Of a stretch of 64,000 nt of DNA, positions 17,248 to 25,595 are shown one piece after another. Origin of the DNA: Bacteroidota bacterium (GTDB lineage: Bacteria; Bacteroidota; Bacteroidia; B-17B0; Aurantibacillaceae). The notes below the pieces were generated by a model that was given only the letters and a program-made list of their open reading frames with translations, was not told where the DNA came from and did no database searches. The stretch lies in assembly GCA_018267475.1 (NCBI GenBank), contig JAFDYI010000006.1:1-64000 (forward strand). The letters are read 5' to 3'. A program made the position numbers and the translations under genes. Positions within the stretch are counted from its first letter, which is position 1. Each line of letters begins with the position of its first letter.

Positions 17248-17982
17248 TTGAAAGAAGAACATCACATATATGGGCTGCATGCGGTAATAGAAGCTATAAA
17301 AGCAGGGAAAGAAATAGATAAAATACTGATTCAGCGAGGGCTTTCAGGGGCATTGTTTAATGAATTGCGTAAGGTTTTGCAAGGAACCAGCATACCCTAT
17401 CAATTAGTGCCGCCCGAAAAAATAAACCGCATTACTTCAAAAAACCACCAAGGCATTGTAGCTTTTTTGTGCGAGATTGAATACTTTAAAGTAGAGGAAT
17501 TGCTACCCCAAGTTTTTTTGGAAGGAAAAACACCACTGGTGTTGGTGCTGGATAAAATAACCGATGTGCGCAACTTTGGAGCCATAGCACGTACGGCCGC
17601 TTGCACCGGGGTGAATATGATAATAGTGCCACAGCGGGGCTCCGCTCAAATAAATGCCGATGCTATAAAAACGTCGGCAGGCGCCTTGCACCAGCTCCCG
17701 GTTTGCCGCGAATATAATCTAAAAGAAACGCTTTTATATCTTAAAGAAAGCGGCTTACAACTGGTTGCCTGCCATGAAAAAACACAAAGTCTAATATACC
17801 AAGCCGATTTTAAACTGCCGACAGCTCTTGTTATGGGAGCCGAAGATACCGGCATTTCGCCCGAGTATTTAAAACTGTGCGATAAAGCCGTAAAAATACC
17901 CATGCAAGGCAACATATCCTCGCTAAACGTATCGGTAGCTACCGGCGTGGTGCTGTATGAAGCTGTAAAGCAAAGGCTTTAA
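17248..17982 (+). CDS. rlmB: 23S rRNA 2'-O-methyltransferase, RlmB/TrmH (SpoU) family
   Basis: 244 residues from a TTG start at 17248; no in-frame ATG lies near, and the sequence begins as RlmB homologues do (HHIYGLHAVIEAI). The N-terminal substrate-binding domain covers about residues 1-85. The SPOUT methyltransferase domain shows all three SpoU motifs: DKITDVRNFGAIARTA (motif 1, with the conserved Asn and Arg), LVMGAEDTGIS (motif 2) and IPMQGNISSLNVSVATGVVL (motif 3, knot region). The family methylates the ribose of a guanosine in 23S rRNA using S-adenosylmethionine. The exact target (G2251 in E. coli) is assumed by homology. Its stop overlaps the end of the small minus-strand gene by 4 bp. 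Confidence 0.9.
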   Translation: MKEEHHIYGLHAVIEAIKAGKEIDKILIQRGLSGALFNELRKVLQGTSIPYQLVPPEKINRITSKNHQGIVAFLCEIEYFKVEELLPQVFLEGKTPLVLVLDKITDVRNFGAIARTAACTGVNMIIVPQRGSAQINADAIKTSAGALHQLPVCREYNLKETLLYLKESGLQLVACHEKTQSLIYQADFKLPTALVMGAEDTGISPEYLKLCDKAVKIPMQGNISSLNVSVATGVVLYEAVKQRL

Positions 17983-18281
17983 GCCGCGCGTCTTCTGCCG
18001 TGTGGGTGGTGGGGGTGATGAGGGGGCGGCTGACTGCGTGCCTTTTTATCCCTTTCTCGCTCGCGCTTATCTTGCTTTGCTTTGGCAATTAAAAACCAGG
18101 CTACAGCCACCACTAGGGCAATACCGCTGCCTACCTGGCCAATTAAAGCCCAACGGGCTGCATTAGCGGCCTCTTCATCTGCACTTGGGGCACCTGCTGC
18201 AAACGACGCAAACGGGGCTACCAACAAAATCGCTATATACAACGCGGCTTTGTTGTTTTTTAAATTTTGGAGTGCTTTCAT
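17979..18281 (-). CDS. Small membrane protein with His/Pro-rich basic tail
   Basis: 100 residues from the ATG at 18281. A longer frame to 18341 adds 20 residues but would place the signal peptide internally, so I rejected it. It has an N-terminal hydrophobic signal (AALYIAILLVAPFASFAAG) and a second membrane helix (ALIGQVGSGIALVVAVAWFLI). A highly charged segment follows (KAKQDKRERERDKKAR), then a tail with PPPHHPHHPHGRRR. The tail could bind a metal ion or nucleic acid, but neither is shown. Such small proteins are common near housekeeping genes in Bacteroidota. It runs convergently with rlmB, the two stops overlapping, and diverges from the rimP operon. Function unknown. Confidence 0.6.
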   Translation of the reverse strand: MKALQNLKNNKAALYIAILLVAPFASFAAGAPSADEEAANAARWALIGQVGSGIALVVAVAWFLIAKAKQDKRERERDKKARSQPPPHHPHHPHGRRRAA

Positions 18282-18366
18282 AATAGTTTGTTTTATGATT
18301 AAACTTATCGTAAAATTAAGTCTTTTTATCGTATAAAACAAATTTTTTGTCGAAAATAACGAACTG

Positions 18367-20253: not shown

Positions 20254-23127
20254 ATGGCAGAAACAAAAACAGTACGGTTAGGTAAACTTGCGGGCGAAAT
20301 GAGCGTTTCTGCTAGCAGCATTGCGGAGTTTTTATTAAGCAAAGGCTTTGAAATAGATGCTAAAAATCCTAATGTAAAAATAGGGGAAACAGAATATAAT
20401 TTAGTAGTACAAGAATTTCAAGGAGATAAAAATGCAAAAAAAGAGGCGCAGCAAGTAGGACAGATTATTAAACAAAAAAAAGAAAGCGTTACCCTTGAAG
20501 GGGTGCAGTTTTTGCAAAAAAAGAAAACAGAAAAAGAAAGCGAAGAAATTGTAATTAAAGATTTGTCGGCTACTTCATCTACCCAGCAAGTACTAGAATC
20601 TCTTAGAAGCGAAACAAAGCAACGTATTGCAAAAGAAACTGAGAAAGACCAAATAAAGAAAAAAGTCGAAGACGATAAAAAAAAGGTTGAAAAACCTAAG
20701 AAAGAAGATAAAAATGAAGCACCAGAAAAGGTTGTTGGAACCGGTGTGAAAATAGTTTCCAAAATAGATTTATCGGCTATCAACACAAAAACGAAGCCCG
20801 ACAAAAAAACAAAAAAAGATAAAGATGCCGAGCTTGCTAAAGCAAAAGAAGAACCTAAAAAAACAGCACGCAAAACACCGGTAAAAGAAATAGAAGAAAA
20901 AAAGCAGGCAGCTATTGAGCCCCCTACCGAGGAAAAAAATCCCCCTGCGCAGCCCGAAGCGCCTAAAGAAGATTTTATTGAAACAAAATACGAAAAACTA
21001 GAAGGCCCTAAAATTCTTTCTAAAATTGAATTACCTGTTGAGAAAAAACCAACCCCAGGCAATGCAAACTCATTTGACAAAAAAGGAAAAAGAAAACGCA
21101 TCAGCAAAGGCGGCAGCTTAAGTGCAGCCGAAATTAGTAAAGTAGGTAAAGAAGAGCGCGACAAAGCCCGTGAAAAATTTAGAGGAAATGAAGACAGAAA
21201 CAAGCGAGGCGTAAAAACAGCTCTTACCGAAGAAGAAATTAGCGCGAAAATAAAAGAAACCTTAGAAAATTTAACTAAGTCTAAAAAAACAGATAGGTCA
21301 AAACATAAAAAAGAAAAGCGAGAAGAAATTCGTGGACGCATTGCCGGTGAGCAAGAGCAGATAGAAGCGGAGAAAAAAATACTAAAGGTAACAGAGTTTG
21401 TGTCAGCTAATCAATTATCGCAAATGATGTCGGTACCAGTCAATCAGGTAATATCAACCTGTATGAGTTTAGGCTTGTTTGTATCAATCAATCAACGTAT
21501 TGATGCTGAAACTATAGCTATTGTAGCCGAGGAGTTTGGTTTTAAAACCGAATTTGTTTCGGCTGAGGTAGTAGAAACCATTAACGAAAAAGACGAAGAA
21601 AATACAGCTGATTTAGAACTGCGCCCTCCTATCGTAACGATTATGGGACACGTAGATCATGGAAAAACATCGTTGCTTGACTATATCCGAAAAGCTAATG
21701 TAGTAGCCGGAGAGGCAGGTGGCATTACCCAGCATATAGGCAGTTACAACGTAACCGTAGAGGGAGGAAAATCCATTACGTTTTTAGATACACCCGGCCA
21801 CGAAGCTTTTACCGCTATGCGTGCTCGTGGAGCTCAAATAACCGATATTGTAGTGATTGTAGTAGCGGCCGATGATAGCGTGATGCCTCAAACCAAAGAA
21901 GCCATAAACCATGCGCAAGCCGCAGGCGTACCGATGATTATTGCAATCAACAAAATTGATAAGCCTGGCGCTAACCCCAATAAAATACGTGAAGATTTAG
22001 CACACTTAAACATCTTAGTAGAAGAATGGGGGGGGAAATATCAATCGCAAGAAATATCGGCAAAAAGTGGATTAAATGTAAATTTATTACTTGAAAAAGT
22101 ATTGTTAGAAGCCGATATGCTAAACCTAAAAGCCAACCCGGCGGGGCGTGCAGTAGGCTCTATCATAGAAGCTAAATTAGATAAAGGGCGCGGCCACGTA
22201 GCCGATATTATTGTGCAAAAAGGAACACTACGTATTGGCGATGTAGTAATAGCAGGAAGTTATAGCGGGCGTGTAAAAGCAATGACCAATGAGCGGGGTC
22301 TTTCTGTGAAAGAAGCAGGCCCTTCTATGCCGGTGCAATTACTGGGCTTGAGTGGTTCGCCTACTGCCGGCGATAAATTTAATGTGATGGCTGATGAGCG
22401 CGAAGCGCGTGAATTGGCTAATAAACGTTTACAGCTACAGCGTGAACAAGGAATCAGAACGCAAAAACACATTACCTTAGATGAAATTGGACGCCGCTTA
22501 GCTATAGGAGATTTTAAAGAACTAAATGTGATTGTAAAAGGAGATGTGGACGGCTCAATAGAAGCCTTATCCGATTCTTTATTAAAACTTTCTACCGAAA
22601 AAATAGCAGTTAACATCATTCATAAATCGGTAGGGGCTATTAGCGAAAACGATGTAATGCTTGCCTCGGCCTCTAACGCTATTGTAATTGGATTTCAAGT
22701 ACGCCCCACTACCAATGCGCGCAAATTAGCTGAAACAGAAGAGATTGATATACGTTTATACTCTATCATTTATCAGGCTATTGATGAGATTAAGGCCGCA
22801 ATGGAGGGTATGTTAGCACCTGAATTTGAAGAAAAAGTGGTGTGCAATATCGAAATTAGAGAAGTGTTTAACATTAGTAAAGTGGGCACCATCGCAGGCT
22901 GTTATGTGCTGGATGGAAAAGTATCGCGCCATACCAAAGTGCGCATTATTAGAGATGGCATTGTAGTTCATAGCGGTGGTTTAGGATCACTAAAACGCTT
23001 TAAAGACGATGTAAAAGAAGTAGCAGCAGGTTACGAGTGTGGATTGAATATTGATGGCTTTAACGATATCAAGGTGGGCGATATTATTGAGGGATATGAT
23101 TTAGTAGAAGTAAAAGCTAAACTATAA
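20254..23127 (+). CDS. infB: Translation initiation factor IF-2
   Basis: 957 residues. IF-2 is a GTPase that places initiator tRNA on the ribosome. The N-terminus has an IF2_N fold ([20 protein letters not shown]), then about 300 residues of Lys/Glu-rich linker. A second IF2_N-like segment follows near 375-430 ([20 protein letters not shown]). The GTPase begins at GHVDHGKT (residue 465), with DTPGHEAF (G3) and NKIDKPG (G4). Domains II, C1 and C2 follow, including [17 protein letters not shown] near the end. The lysine-rich linker explains its weak base composition and the long antisense open frame at 20418-21341. It lies 58 bp after nusA and 12 bp before folE. Confidence 0.96.
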
Positions 23128-23139
23128 AACGATTGCTTT

Positions 23140-23721
23140 GTGGATATTCAAAACTTTAAAGACATACAGGGCTTGCAGTTGCACTACGAAAAAATTCTTT
23201 CTGAAGTAGGAGAGAATACGAATAGAGAAGGTTTATTGAAAACACCACATCGTGCAGCCAAAGCAATGGCTTTTCTTACCAAAGGCTATAACGAATCTCC
23301 TGCTGATATTTTATCGTCGGCTATGTTTAAAGAAGATTATAGCCAAATGGTAGTAGTAAAGGATATTGAAGTGTACAGCCTATGCGAGCATCATATATTG
23401 CCTTTTTTTGGCAAGGCACATATAGCATACATTCCTAACGGGCATATTGTAGGGTTAAGCAAATTGCCTCGTGTAGTAGATGCTTTTGCCCGCCGTTTGC
23501 AAGTGCAAGAGCGACTAACAAACGAAATACGCGATTGCATACAAAACACCTTGCAGCCCAAAGGGGTAGCTGTTGTGATAGAATGCAGCCACCTATGTAT
23601 GCAGATGCGAGGGGTACAAAAACAAAATTCAGTAACTACTACGTCGGCTTTTACGGGCGAATTTTTGAAGGATACTACGCGTAAAGAATTTATAAATCTT
23701 ATTGCGGCTAAGTTGCACTAA
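23140..23721 (+). CDS. folE: GTP cyclohydrolase I, type FolE
   Basis: 193 residues from a GTG at 23140; the frame begins as homologues do ([19 protein letters not shown]) and no ATG is close. The enzyme opens GTP to dihydroneopterin triphosphate, the first step of folate or pterin synthesis. Zinc ligands are visible: Cys and His in [20 protein letters not shown] and a second Cys in [13 protein letters not shown]. The catalytic surroundings [20 protein letters not shown] are intact. It follows infB by 12 bp, so it probably rides on the rimP-nusA-infB transcript. pabA and pabB, which supply the other half of folate, are in the same window but in separate operons. Confidence 0.95.
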
Positions 23722-23746: not shown

Positions 23747-24118
23747 TTGAAAAAAGCATTTTTTTTATGTTTGTTTTTTATATGTGGAAAATTATTTTCC
23801 TTACACAACGAGAAAATAGATAGCATAAAAGTGATTGCACCAAACGTAATTACGCCTAATGGAGACGGGATTAACGATACCTGGAGCACGATTATAGTAG
23901 ATGCCAAGCAGGTTTTTAATTTGCAAACCACGATATACAACCGCTATGGCAAGCGCGTTTTTGAAAGTACGAATATAAAACAAGTATGGAACGGCTACTG
24001 TCAGTATGAGGGTACTTTGTGCAGCGACGGTGCGTATTTTTATGTGATATCGTATCTTGATGCCAATACCAATGAAACAAAAAATATGAGCGGCTTTATA
24101 GAATTGCTGTCAAAATGA
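23747..24118 (+). CDS. Minimal secreted CHU_C / gliding-motility C-terminal domain protein
   Basis: About 123 residues from a TTG at 23747, chosen because it opens a signal peptide (KKAFFLCLFFICGKLFS). A longer frame from TTG 23702 overlaps folE and hides the signal. After the signal there is only one domain, the CHU_C or gliding-motility-associated domain used as T9SS type B sorting signal. The motifs are VITPNGDGINDTW, IYNRYGKRVF, VWNGYCQYEG and DGAYFYVISY, ending MSGFIELLSK. Normally this domain sits at the C-terminus of proteins of hundreds to thousands of residues; here it is nearly the whole product. It lies 25 bp after folE on the same strand. Role unknown; it could be a relic of a larger gene, but the reading frame is intact. 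Confidence 0.75.
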   Translation: MKKAFFLCLFFICGKLFSLHNEKIDSIKVIAPNVITPNGDGINDTWSTIIVDAKQVFNLQTTIYNRYGKRVFESTNIKQVWNGYCQYEGTLCSDGAYFYVISYLDANTNETKNMSGFIELLSK

Positions 24119-24122
24119 TGGT

Positions 24123-25592
24123 TTATTTTTTTTGCAACTCGTATAAACTGTACACGTTGGCTCTTGACGCCCAATCGTTAAAGTTAAAATAGGTAATAAT
24201 CCATTGCGGGTAGATGCAGTACAGCTGGTGGGCTTCGTAGCCAATAGGGCAGTATCCTAATTTAGGTTGCGGCACGTACAGCAGGGTAGAGGAGGGGCGT
24301 TTGGCTTGTAAGTAATGGTCTAAATCGTGTTCATCTTTTACAACCAACTCGGTTATATTTTTTTGACGATAAAAATTCATTTCTAATATCTGAGTGTAAA
24401 TAGAGCTTTTAAGGGAAAGGAGTGTAAGGGGCTGCGTGTAGGTGTAGCTGATATGTCGCAAACACAATATAGATTCTAATGGTGGCACGCAACTTCTGTA
24501 TAATAAAAGCCCCATGTTCATAACTAACAGCAGCACATATGCCACTTTTGTTATTTTATTTCCTTTATACTTTTGTATGTAGTTATCTATGCCAATGGCT
24601 ATTAAATAAGTAAACCCAAACAGCACGGGAAACAAGAATCGCAACTCTTTATGCCCCACGGCGGCATGCCCTATAAAAAAAAAGAGTATTACCAAGGAAA
24701 AAAGGTGCGTTTTCTTCTTTAAAATACCTATACCCAAAAAATAAAGAAGCACTATGCTTATAGGAGGAACCACGAAATTAAAAATAAAAACGAAATAGTA
24801 CCACCAAGGGAAAATCCCAAACTTGTCAGCCGCGTGGTCTAAGATATTGCTTTTAAAATAATTGTAAGGTGTAAACTCCCAGGAGTGATAAAACCATCTA
24901 TCTATGCACAGGCATATAGCACTAAAAAAAAGGAAAGAAAAAAGAGCATAGAGGTAGTGCTGCAATTTTGATTTTTGAATGAGTAACAGCCACAAACCAA
25001 TGCCCGCAAAAGCAAAAGCCATTTGAAAACGAAAGAAAAAAGAGAGCGCCAACAAACCGCCTATAAGTAAAAAAGAACGATTTTTTTGCTGAGGATTAGT
25101 GTATGGCTTTAATAAAAGATAAACCGAGAACAGGAAGCATAAGGCCGCTGTGTTTTCGGAAGAAAAACGAACGCTTATGTAAGGTACAAACCAAAGAAAA
25201 AAGCTTAATAAAATAAAAATAATTTTTCCTTTTTGTGTTTTAAAATCAGATATAAGAAGCAATACTAATTTGCAGCTTATAAACCAGTACAATAAGCCTA
25301 CTAATAACCGAAATAAGAAGGTAACCGTAAAGGGGTTTTGAATGCCAACCTGCTGAAACAGCCACATGCAACAATAAGCTATAAAGGGTTGTAAGGCAGG
25401 GCGCATTTTTTTAGCAAATTCCCAAGGTAAATCTCTCTCAGGGGTATGGTTTAGTTTGTAATTGGCAAATTCCAGTATTTGATAATGCTCGTCGGGATGA
25501 TGAAAGCCAATGCTGCACCAAGAGGCGACCAAAATAAGTATTAGCCCACCTACGAAATAGCGGGTATATATAGAGTTAAAAATAGGTTTCAT
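24123..25592 (-). CDS. GT-C membrane glycosyltransferase, GT22 (PIG-B/ALG9-like) family
   Basis: 489 residues from the ATG at 25592; the codon just before it is a TTG and was not preferred. It is a polytopic membrane protein. The first loop carries HHPDEHYQILEFANYKL, the acidic catalytic motif (His-Pro-Asp-Glu) typical of the GT22 mannosyltransferase superfamily. Many hydrophobic helices follow, and a soluble C-terminal part (about residues 390-489) has SYTYTQPLTLLSLK and CPIGYEAHQLYC. GT-C enzymes transfer sugars from lipid-phosphate donors on the outer face of the inner membrane. The acceptor is unknown. It lies 3 bp downstream of pabB, with no obvious functional link. Confidence 0.75.
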   Translation of the reverse strand: MKPIFNSIYTRYFVGGLILILVASWCSIGFHHPDEHYQILEFANYKLNHTPERDLPWEFAKKMRPALQPFIAYCCMWLFQQVGIQNPFTVTFLFRLLVGLLYWFISCKLVLLLISDFKTQKGKIIFILLSFFLWFVPYISVRFSSENTAALCFLFSVYLLLKPYTNPQQKNRSFLLIGGLLALSFFFRFQMAFAFAGIGLWLLLIQKSKLQHYLYALFSFLFFSAICLCIDRWFYHSWEFTPYNYFKSNILDHAADKFGIFPWWYYFVFIFNFVVPPISIVLLYFLGIGILKKKTHLFSLVILFFFIGHAAVGHKELRFLFPVLFGFTYLIAIGIDNYIQKYKGNKITKVAYVLLLVMNMGLLLYRSCVPPLESILCLRHISYTYTQPLTLLSLKSSIYTQILEMNFYRQKNITELVVKDEHDLDHYLQAKRPSSTLLYVPQPKLGYCPIGYEAHQLYCIYPQWIITYFNFNDWASRANVYSLYELQKK

Positions 25593-25595
25593 CAA

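Follow-up and report, generated by a model that had tools for sequence, protein, structure and literature searches.

A stand-alone CHU_C protein encoded behind folE, a candidate cargo-free type B substrate of the T9SS

Type B substrates of the T9SS are described as dependent on a PorP/SprF-like carrier, as probably uncleaved, and as thought to be anchored to that carrier (passages of PMC10202324, PMC9143113, and PMC12618676). One shuttle can serve several CTDs, as shown for three orphan CTDs and for CTDs of high identity (a passage of PMC12618676). The minimal length of the type B signal is unsettled: reporter fusions, as given in passages of PMC10202324 and PMC12618676, suggest that a region of ~100 residues does not suffice by itself and that secretion requires >200 and up to 235 residues, a length that reaches beyond the conserved domain. 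The reporter that was found not to be secreted with the ~100-residue region alone was GFP (PMC10202324, same passages). In Porphyromonas gingivalis, PG1035 has been speculated to cap PorP (a passage of PMC9143113).

The window (the whole stretch of DNA that was analyzed, 64,000 nucleotides) contains an intact ORF on the forward strand, at 23747..24118, for a stand-alone CHU_C protein of 123 aa that we call X. The frame is open upstream to 23702, inside folE (140 aa from stop to stop), and we infer a start at the TTG at 23747 because it yields an N-terminus with KK and a hydrophobic stretch. By eye, the first ~19 residues are signal-peptide-like, and a probable Sec signal peptide can be read from the sequence at 23747..23803 on the same strand (MKKAFFLCLFFICGKLFSL-). 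A complete CHU_C, or T9SS type B C-terminal, domain follows at 23834..24106 (+). Residues 30-120 match PF13585 (CHU_C) over profile positions 2-86 of 86 (E 1.5e-21; 76.7 bits, cut-off 27 bits), and residues 31-120 match TIGR04131 (T9SS type B) over positions 3-83 of 85 (56 bits, cut-off 35 bits). The domain is terminal, ending at residue 120 of 123, and X has no N-terminal cargo region, as only ~10 residues separate the probable signal peptide from the domain. An N-terminal cargo is usual in type B substrates, though it lies outside the PF13585 and TIGR04131 family models. The first-pass annotation had described X as about 105 residues after a signal peptide, essentially one CHU_C domain in an intact frame, and this description was right. 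The window composition gives a 123-codon open frame a probability of ~2e-4, and only in the frame of X is the codon score clearly positive; together, these results exclude a chance ORF. Among the 43 CHU_C matches listed in its own genome (G000), X alone has an open frame of <200 aa; the next has 229.

The AlphaFold model of X is a beta-sandwich (mean pLDDT 88.1; 91-98 per ten-residue block over residues 31-120). When compared with T9SS CTDs of solved structures, it matches the NucA CTD with a Z of 9.1 (rmsd 1.9, 73 residues aligned), PorU with 8.4, and PorZ with 8.0; these matches back the fold only, since a Z of 7-8 is common among such sandwiches. The top-Z fold matches are streptococcal serine protease domains (10.5). 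The single PDB sequence match is an Aureispira grappling-hook protein (E 1.3e-6).

The genome that carries X also encodes an SprA_N protein (490.6 bits, in a 2546-aa frame) and nine PorP_SprF proteins, and these make a working T9SS likely. The listed CHU_C matches (43) outnumber the PorP_SprF proteins (nine), and many type B substrates must therefore have shuttles in common. This imbalance, the complete domain kept in X, and the reported service of several CTDs by one shuttle (PMC12618676, passage as above) would all suit a decoy or competitor, i.e., a protein that imitates the sorting domain of certain cargo proteins and, by occupying their shuttle, curbs their export. A decoy should, however, resemble the domain of its cargo, and X shares at most 43% identity with the own-genome CHU_C domains among the matches listed, none of which is a near-copy; nor does a cargo or shuttle gene adjoin it. 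The decoy idea, which had been raised from the sequence alone, thus gained no positive evidence, and we consider it improbable.

Upstream of X, at a distance of 25 bp, lies folE (GTP cyclohydrolase I; 23140..23721, +; PF01227, 249.4 bits), with which we saw no functional link, and infB (IF-2; 20254..23127, +) lies 12 bp upstream of folE. As read from the sequence, infB, folE, and X could form one transcript. On its 3' side, X is bounded after a 4-bp gap by a convergent gene (24123..25595, -) for what is by eye a membrane protein. No PorP gene, shuttle gene, or cargo gene lies beside X, and with no PorP gene there, no partner is nameable. Elsewhere in the window, the small protein encoded at 17979-18341 (-) combines a hydrophobic stretch with a basic tail rich in Pro and His.

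A close copy of folE turned up in four of the six congeners; the two in which none did (G002 and G003) have assemblies that are 58% and 56% complete. None of the four has a CHU_C gene behind folE, as judged from the loci viewed and from a profile search of all ORFs. G001 has a second folE-like match (44%), whose locus (L065) was covered by the profile search of ORFs, and no CHU_C gene was found there. The first-pass annotation had considered that homologues next to folE might be long proteins of which X is the remaining end. No such homologue was found (0 of 4), and X is not a stump left beside folE. Conserved synteny with folE, also considered there, did not hold up: the stand-alone relatives in congeners adjoin an adhesin (below). 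The same two results, absence of X behind folE in all four congeners with folE and adhesin neighbors for the X genes of congeners, make it highly improbable that X has a folate-linked function and works with GTP cyclohydrolase I, an idea to which its position on the same strand, 25 bp behind folE, might otherwise lead.

Among the 60 relatives searched, two congeners gave the best matches to X: G002 at 50% identity and G005 at 44%. Each match is a stand-alone protein of 134 aa whose gene lies directly behind that of a ~1054-aa protein with its own CHU_C, and this adhesin has SprB repeats in G005. In G001, no X intervenes between the adhesin gene and the next one; in G000, a different gene comes after the best adhesin homologue (49% over part), and X lies at folE instead. 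We placed 117 of 122 CHU_C domains in a tree of 107 columns, few for its rows, in which the three X proteins (G000, G002, and G005) form one clade (99/88). Given this clade and the differing neighbors, a stand-alone gene of one descent occupies different places. The sister group of the X clade (90/90) consists of four longer proteins (657, 678, 690, and, at a contig end, at least 433 aa) and includes two tandem G000 proteins, one of them cut by a contig end. The branch of G000 is the longest of the X trio (0.51). The short frames L076, L080, and L082 are contig ends rather than stand-alone genes: L076 and L080 were kept in the tree and not counted as stand-alone, while L082 was left out as a cut-short row together with L136, L138, L157, and L165. 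Also kept was L034 1-1426, a locus-edge copy of the L160 protein.

A search of other genomes for stand-alone copies, which had been put forward as a check, showed that such CHU_C genes recur in the family. Those of G010, G018, and G013 form a clade (97/97); the genes of G010 and G018 adjoin the same short-chain-dehydrogenase-like gene, and a shared membrane protein gene neighbors those of G018 and G013 (both by eye). Once frames at contig edges and those with a partial domain are set aside, G005 has two stand-alone frames (113 and 134 aa) among 64 PF13585 matches listed, G029 has one (140 aa) among 45, and G018 has one (129 aa) among 71. A phylum-wide scan, whose search patterns were biased to stand-alone sequences, gave four frames of <200 aa among the 80 loci listed, and the clear stand-alone cases are two (L191 and L225); L231 has a tail behind CHU_C, and L188 has, by eye, kept part of a PKD-like region. 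These counts make stand-alone CHU_C a minority form.

Some genes in these sets have features of their own. In L231 5899-6396, which by eye encodes a lipoprotein-like protein, CHU_C is not terminal: its match stops ~50 residues short of the C-terminus. L252 4579-5130 (-), L253 3784-4335 (+), and L254 3958-4518 (+) encode proteins of 183-186 aa in which, by eye, a brief repeat-like stretch precedes CHU_C, the latter checked for L252. Each of these genes lies behind a TPR-like gene (by eye), and a PorP_SprF gene adjoins in G029 and G005; the three proteins, each from a different genus, look like nearly cargo-free substrates, and two have a shuttle of their own. CHU_C also stands alone in the proteins of L225 5860-6294, L081 8583-9023, and L083 7753-8259, where it is preceded by a similar short stretch that by eye resembles the final part of an FN3-like domain; the tree joins L081 and L083 (98/85).

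A T9SS type B protein is also encoded in a slot behind the gene of a LuxC-like acyl-CoA reductase (PF05893, 32.9 bits), a gene that itself adjoins a ferredoxin-like one (by eye). In 17 of the 20 genomes of genus g7, and likewise in G011 of genus g6, the slot holds a CHU_C-only protein of ~131 aa, and the reductase lies upstream in all 18 of these stand-alone loci. G109 and G107 of g7 have the reductase and ABC genes with no stand-alone CHU_C gene between them, and in G100 of g7 (84% complete) no reductase was found. In genera g2 and g9, a CHU_C protein of 277-285 aa lies beside the reductase in all 12 loci viewed (L102-L113), and the slot protein has 280-284 aa in congeners G001, G002, G003, and G005; Pfam finds two PKD_4 stretches plus CHU_C in both the L102 and the G001 protein. 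The slot protein is larger in G006 (at least 950 aa) and in G000 (933 aa, with PKD domains and CHU_C). In the tree, the g7 and g6 stand-alone proteins nest inside the slot clade (99/92). Synteny and tree together support a loss of cargo at this slot with the domain retained.

Two further ideas were examined and set aside. First, the stand-alone groups might have independent origins. The best tree does separate X, the lux-slot proteins, and G010/G013/G018, but tests permit joins: a single clade of X and G010/G013/G018 is not rejected (p 0.302), nor is one of the lux-slot proteins and G010/G013/G018 (p 0.312), and one of X and the lux-slot proteins is borderline (p 0.0568). Second, a passage of PMC12635249 provided the lead that Cys92 might have a disulfide role. 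Cys92 is present in all ten aligned stand-alone proteins of a first set; in the wider set, every lux-slot stand-alone protein has it (18 of 18), as do 7 of the 10 remaining stand-alone ones, but it is also present in 18 of 19 cargo proteins labeled with the same slot and in 19 of 70 other domains. Hence, Cys92 follows descent, not the stand-alone state.

Cargo loss at the reductase slot could also be taken to favor a relic, i.e., X as the end of a longer T9SS substrate that has lost its cargo part and is now drifting. Usable dS values exist for two g7 pairs, in which the stand-alone domain has a dN/dS of 0.028 and 0.032. Rate ratios, which are descriptive and come from pairs that are not independent, are 0.65 for cargo-free (17 g7 genomes) versus 1.04 for cargo-borne copies (12 of 13 g2/g9 loci) with the reductase as clock (ratio of sums), 1.18 in four g1 genomes with the same clock, and 1.04 (16 of 17) versus 1.02 (6 of 13 only) with the ABC clock. 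Stronger selection after cargo loss, seen with the reductase clock, was gone with the ABC clock and was not retained as a result. These comparisons indicate that there is no relaxation after cargo loss at the reductase slot and that any tightening depends on the clock.

For the X trio, pN is 0.18-0.36 and pS 0.80-0.87 over the domain only; the latter is saturated, so no dN/dS value is given for X itself. In the order G002-G005, G000-G002, and G000-G005, dN is 0.20, 0.37, and 0.50 for X and 0.20, 0.36, and 0.37 for the adhesin CHU_C, which agrees with X except in the last comparison. The corresponding values are 0.18, 0.21, and 0.25 for the reductase-slot CHU_C and 0.18, 0.27, and 0.28 for the reductase, and X is faster than both of these on both G000 comparisons. 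We read these sequences as those of a constrained protein, with room for mild relaxation on the window species' own branch. That branch, the longest of the trio, and the faster pace of X in the G000 comparisons speak for a relic. On the other hand, X has kept a signal-peptide-like N-terminus, the stand-alone form is common to three species in different contexts, pN is far below a saturated pS, and the g7 stand-alone copies are no faster than cargo-borne ones; a drifting relic is, in our judgment, unlikely. The first-pass annotation had argued for selection and had named relaxed selection as the contrary outcome. Its argument is supported by the stand-alone form in three congeneric species and by the low pN; relaxation was not found in g7, and X appears constrained but evolves faster than one of the two comparison domains.

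We consider it probable that X is a selected, secreted mini-substrate. X would be exported by Sec and fold in the periplasm; the SprA translocon would then take it up, along with one of the PorP/SprF-like barrels that the genome encodes, and X would stay docked on that barrel at the surface. Because X has no cargo, whatever it does must be done by the domain, and if type B substrates stay anchored to their carriers as proposed, a domain-only protein can bind one. Its function would most simply be that of a barrel occupant or cap, or else that of a non-covalent anchor for another surface protein; that X caps or occupies a PorP/SprF barrel is a tentative proposal. X probably originated from a longer protein by loss of the N-terminal cargo, as the reductase slot shows for other copies. 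Taken as a whole, the statement that X is a cargo-free type B T9SS substrate with the domain itself as the working part, probably a barrel occupant or cap, has in our estimate a little less than an even chance.

If ~100 residues are insufficient, as the fusion reports suggest, X may stay periplasmic. The domain alone would then be an insufficient T9SS signal, and X would either bind the translocon or PorP/SprF-like barrels on their periplasmic side or leave in another way. The failure of the ~100-residue region to secrete GFP (PMC10202324) fits this, as does the 112-aa Fjoh_0547, which reaches the medium in sprA and porV mutants (cited in a passage of PMC7712824); its presence in the medium even without SprA makes another exit possible. 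However, the fusions carried a folded reporter, whereas X would have nothing to pull through, and the passages of PMC7712824 do not state the CTD class of Fjoh_0547. We regard a periplasmic role or another exit as rather unlikely, and keep a docked mini-substrate as our reading of X.

More generally, cargo-free type B CTD proteins might make up a class in Bacteroidota that works in trans on the machinery of secretion and gliding, as caps, placeholders, or adaptors of PorP/SprF-like barrels; its members would arise by cargo shedding, probably more than once, and then be selected for the domain alone. We offer this as a conjecture that may well prove wrong. Natural domain-only proteins are a ready test of signal length and of whether a CTD has a job of its own once seated on a shuttle, and they are small enough for structural work on the CTD/PorP complex.

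A literature search of titles and abstract openings returned no paper on stand-alone, cargo-free type B CTD proteins. Four described systems come closest, each known here from passages of the paper cited. PG1035 of P. gingivalis also has a type B CTD, binds the PorP barrel, and is non-essential, but its expected monomer of ~50 kDa implies a large N-terminal part, which X lacks (PMC9143113). SprB-type adhesins with PorP/SprF shuttles share the C-terminal domain family of X and presumably the same shuttle class; they are, however, large cargo, often encoded beside the shuttle, and X has neither (PMC12618676). PorA of P. gingivalis is, like X, a small CTD protein, and it acts on the T9SS pathway, but it is 246 aa long, contains a FimH-like domain, and carries a CTD that the paper assigns to type A, whereas X is a type B domain only (PMC7712824). 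Fjoh_0547 of Flavobacterium johnsoniae, found in the medium, is, like X, tiny and CTD-containing; unlike what we propose for X, it is released even without SprA or PorV, and the likeness is one of description, the CTD class not being stated in those passages (PMC7712824). The CHU_C family is known, and a tiny CTD protein is on record in Fjoh_0547.
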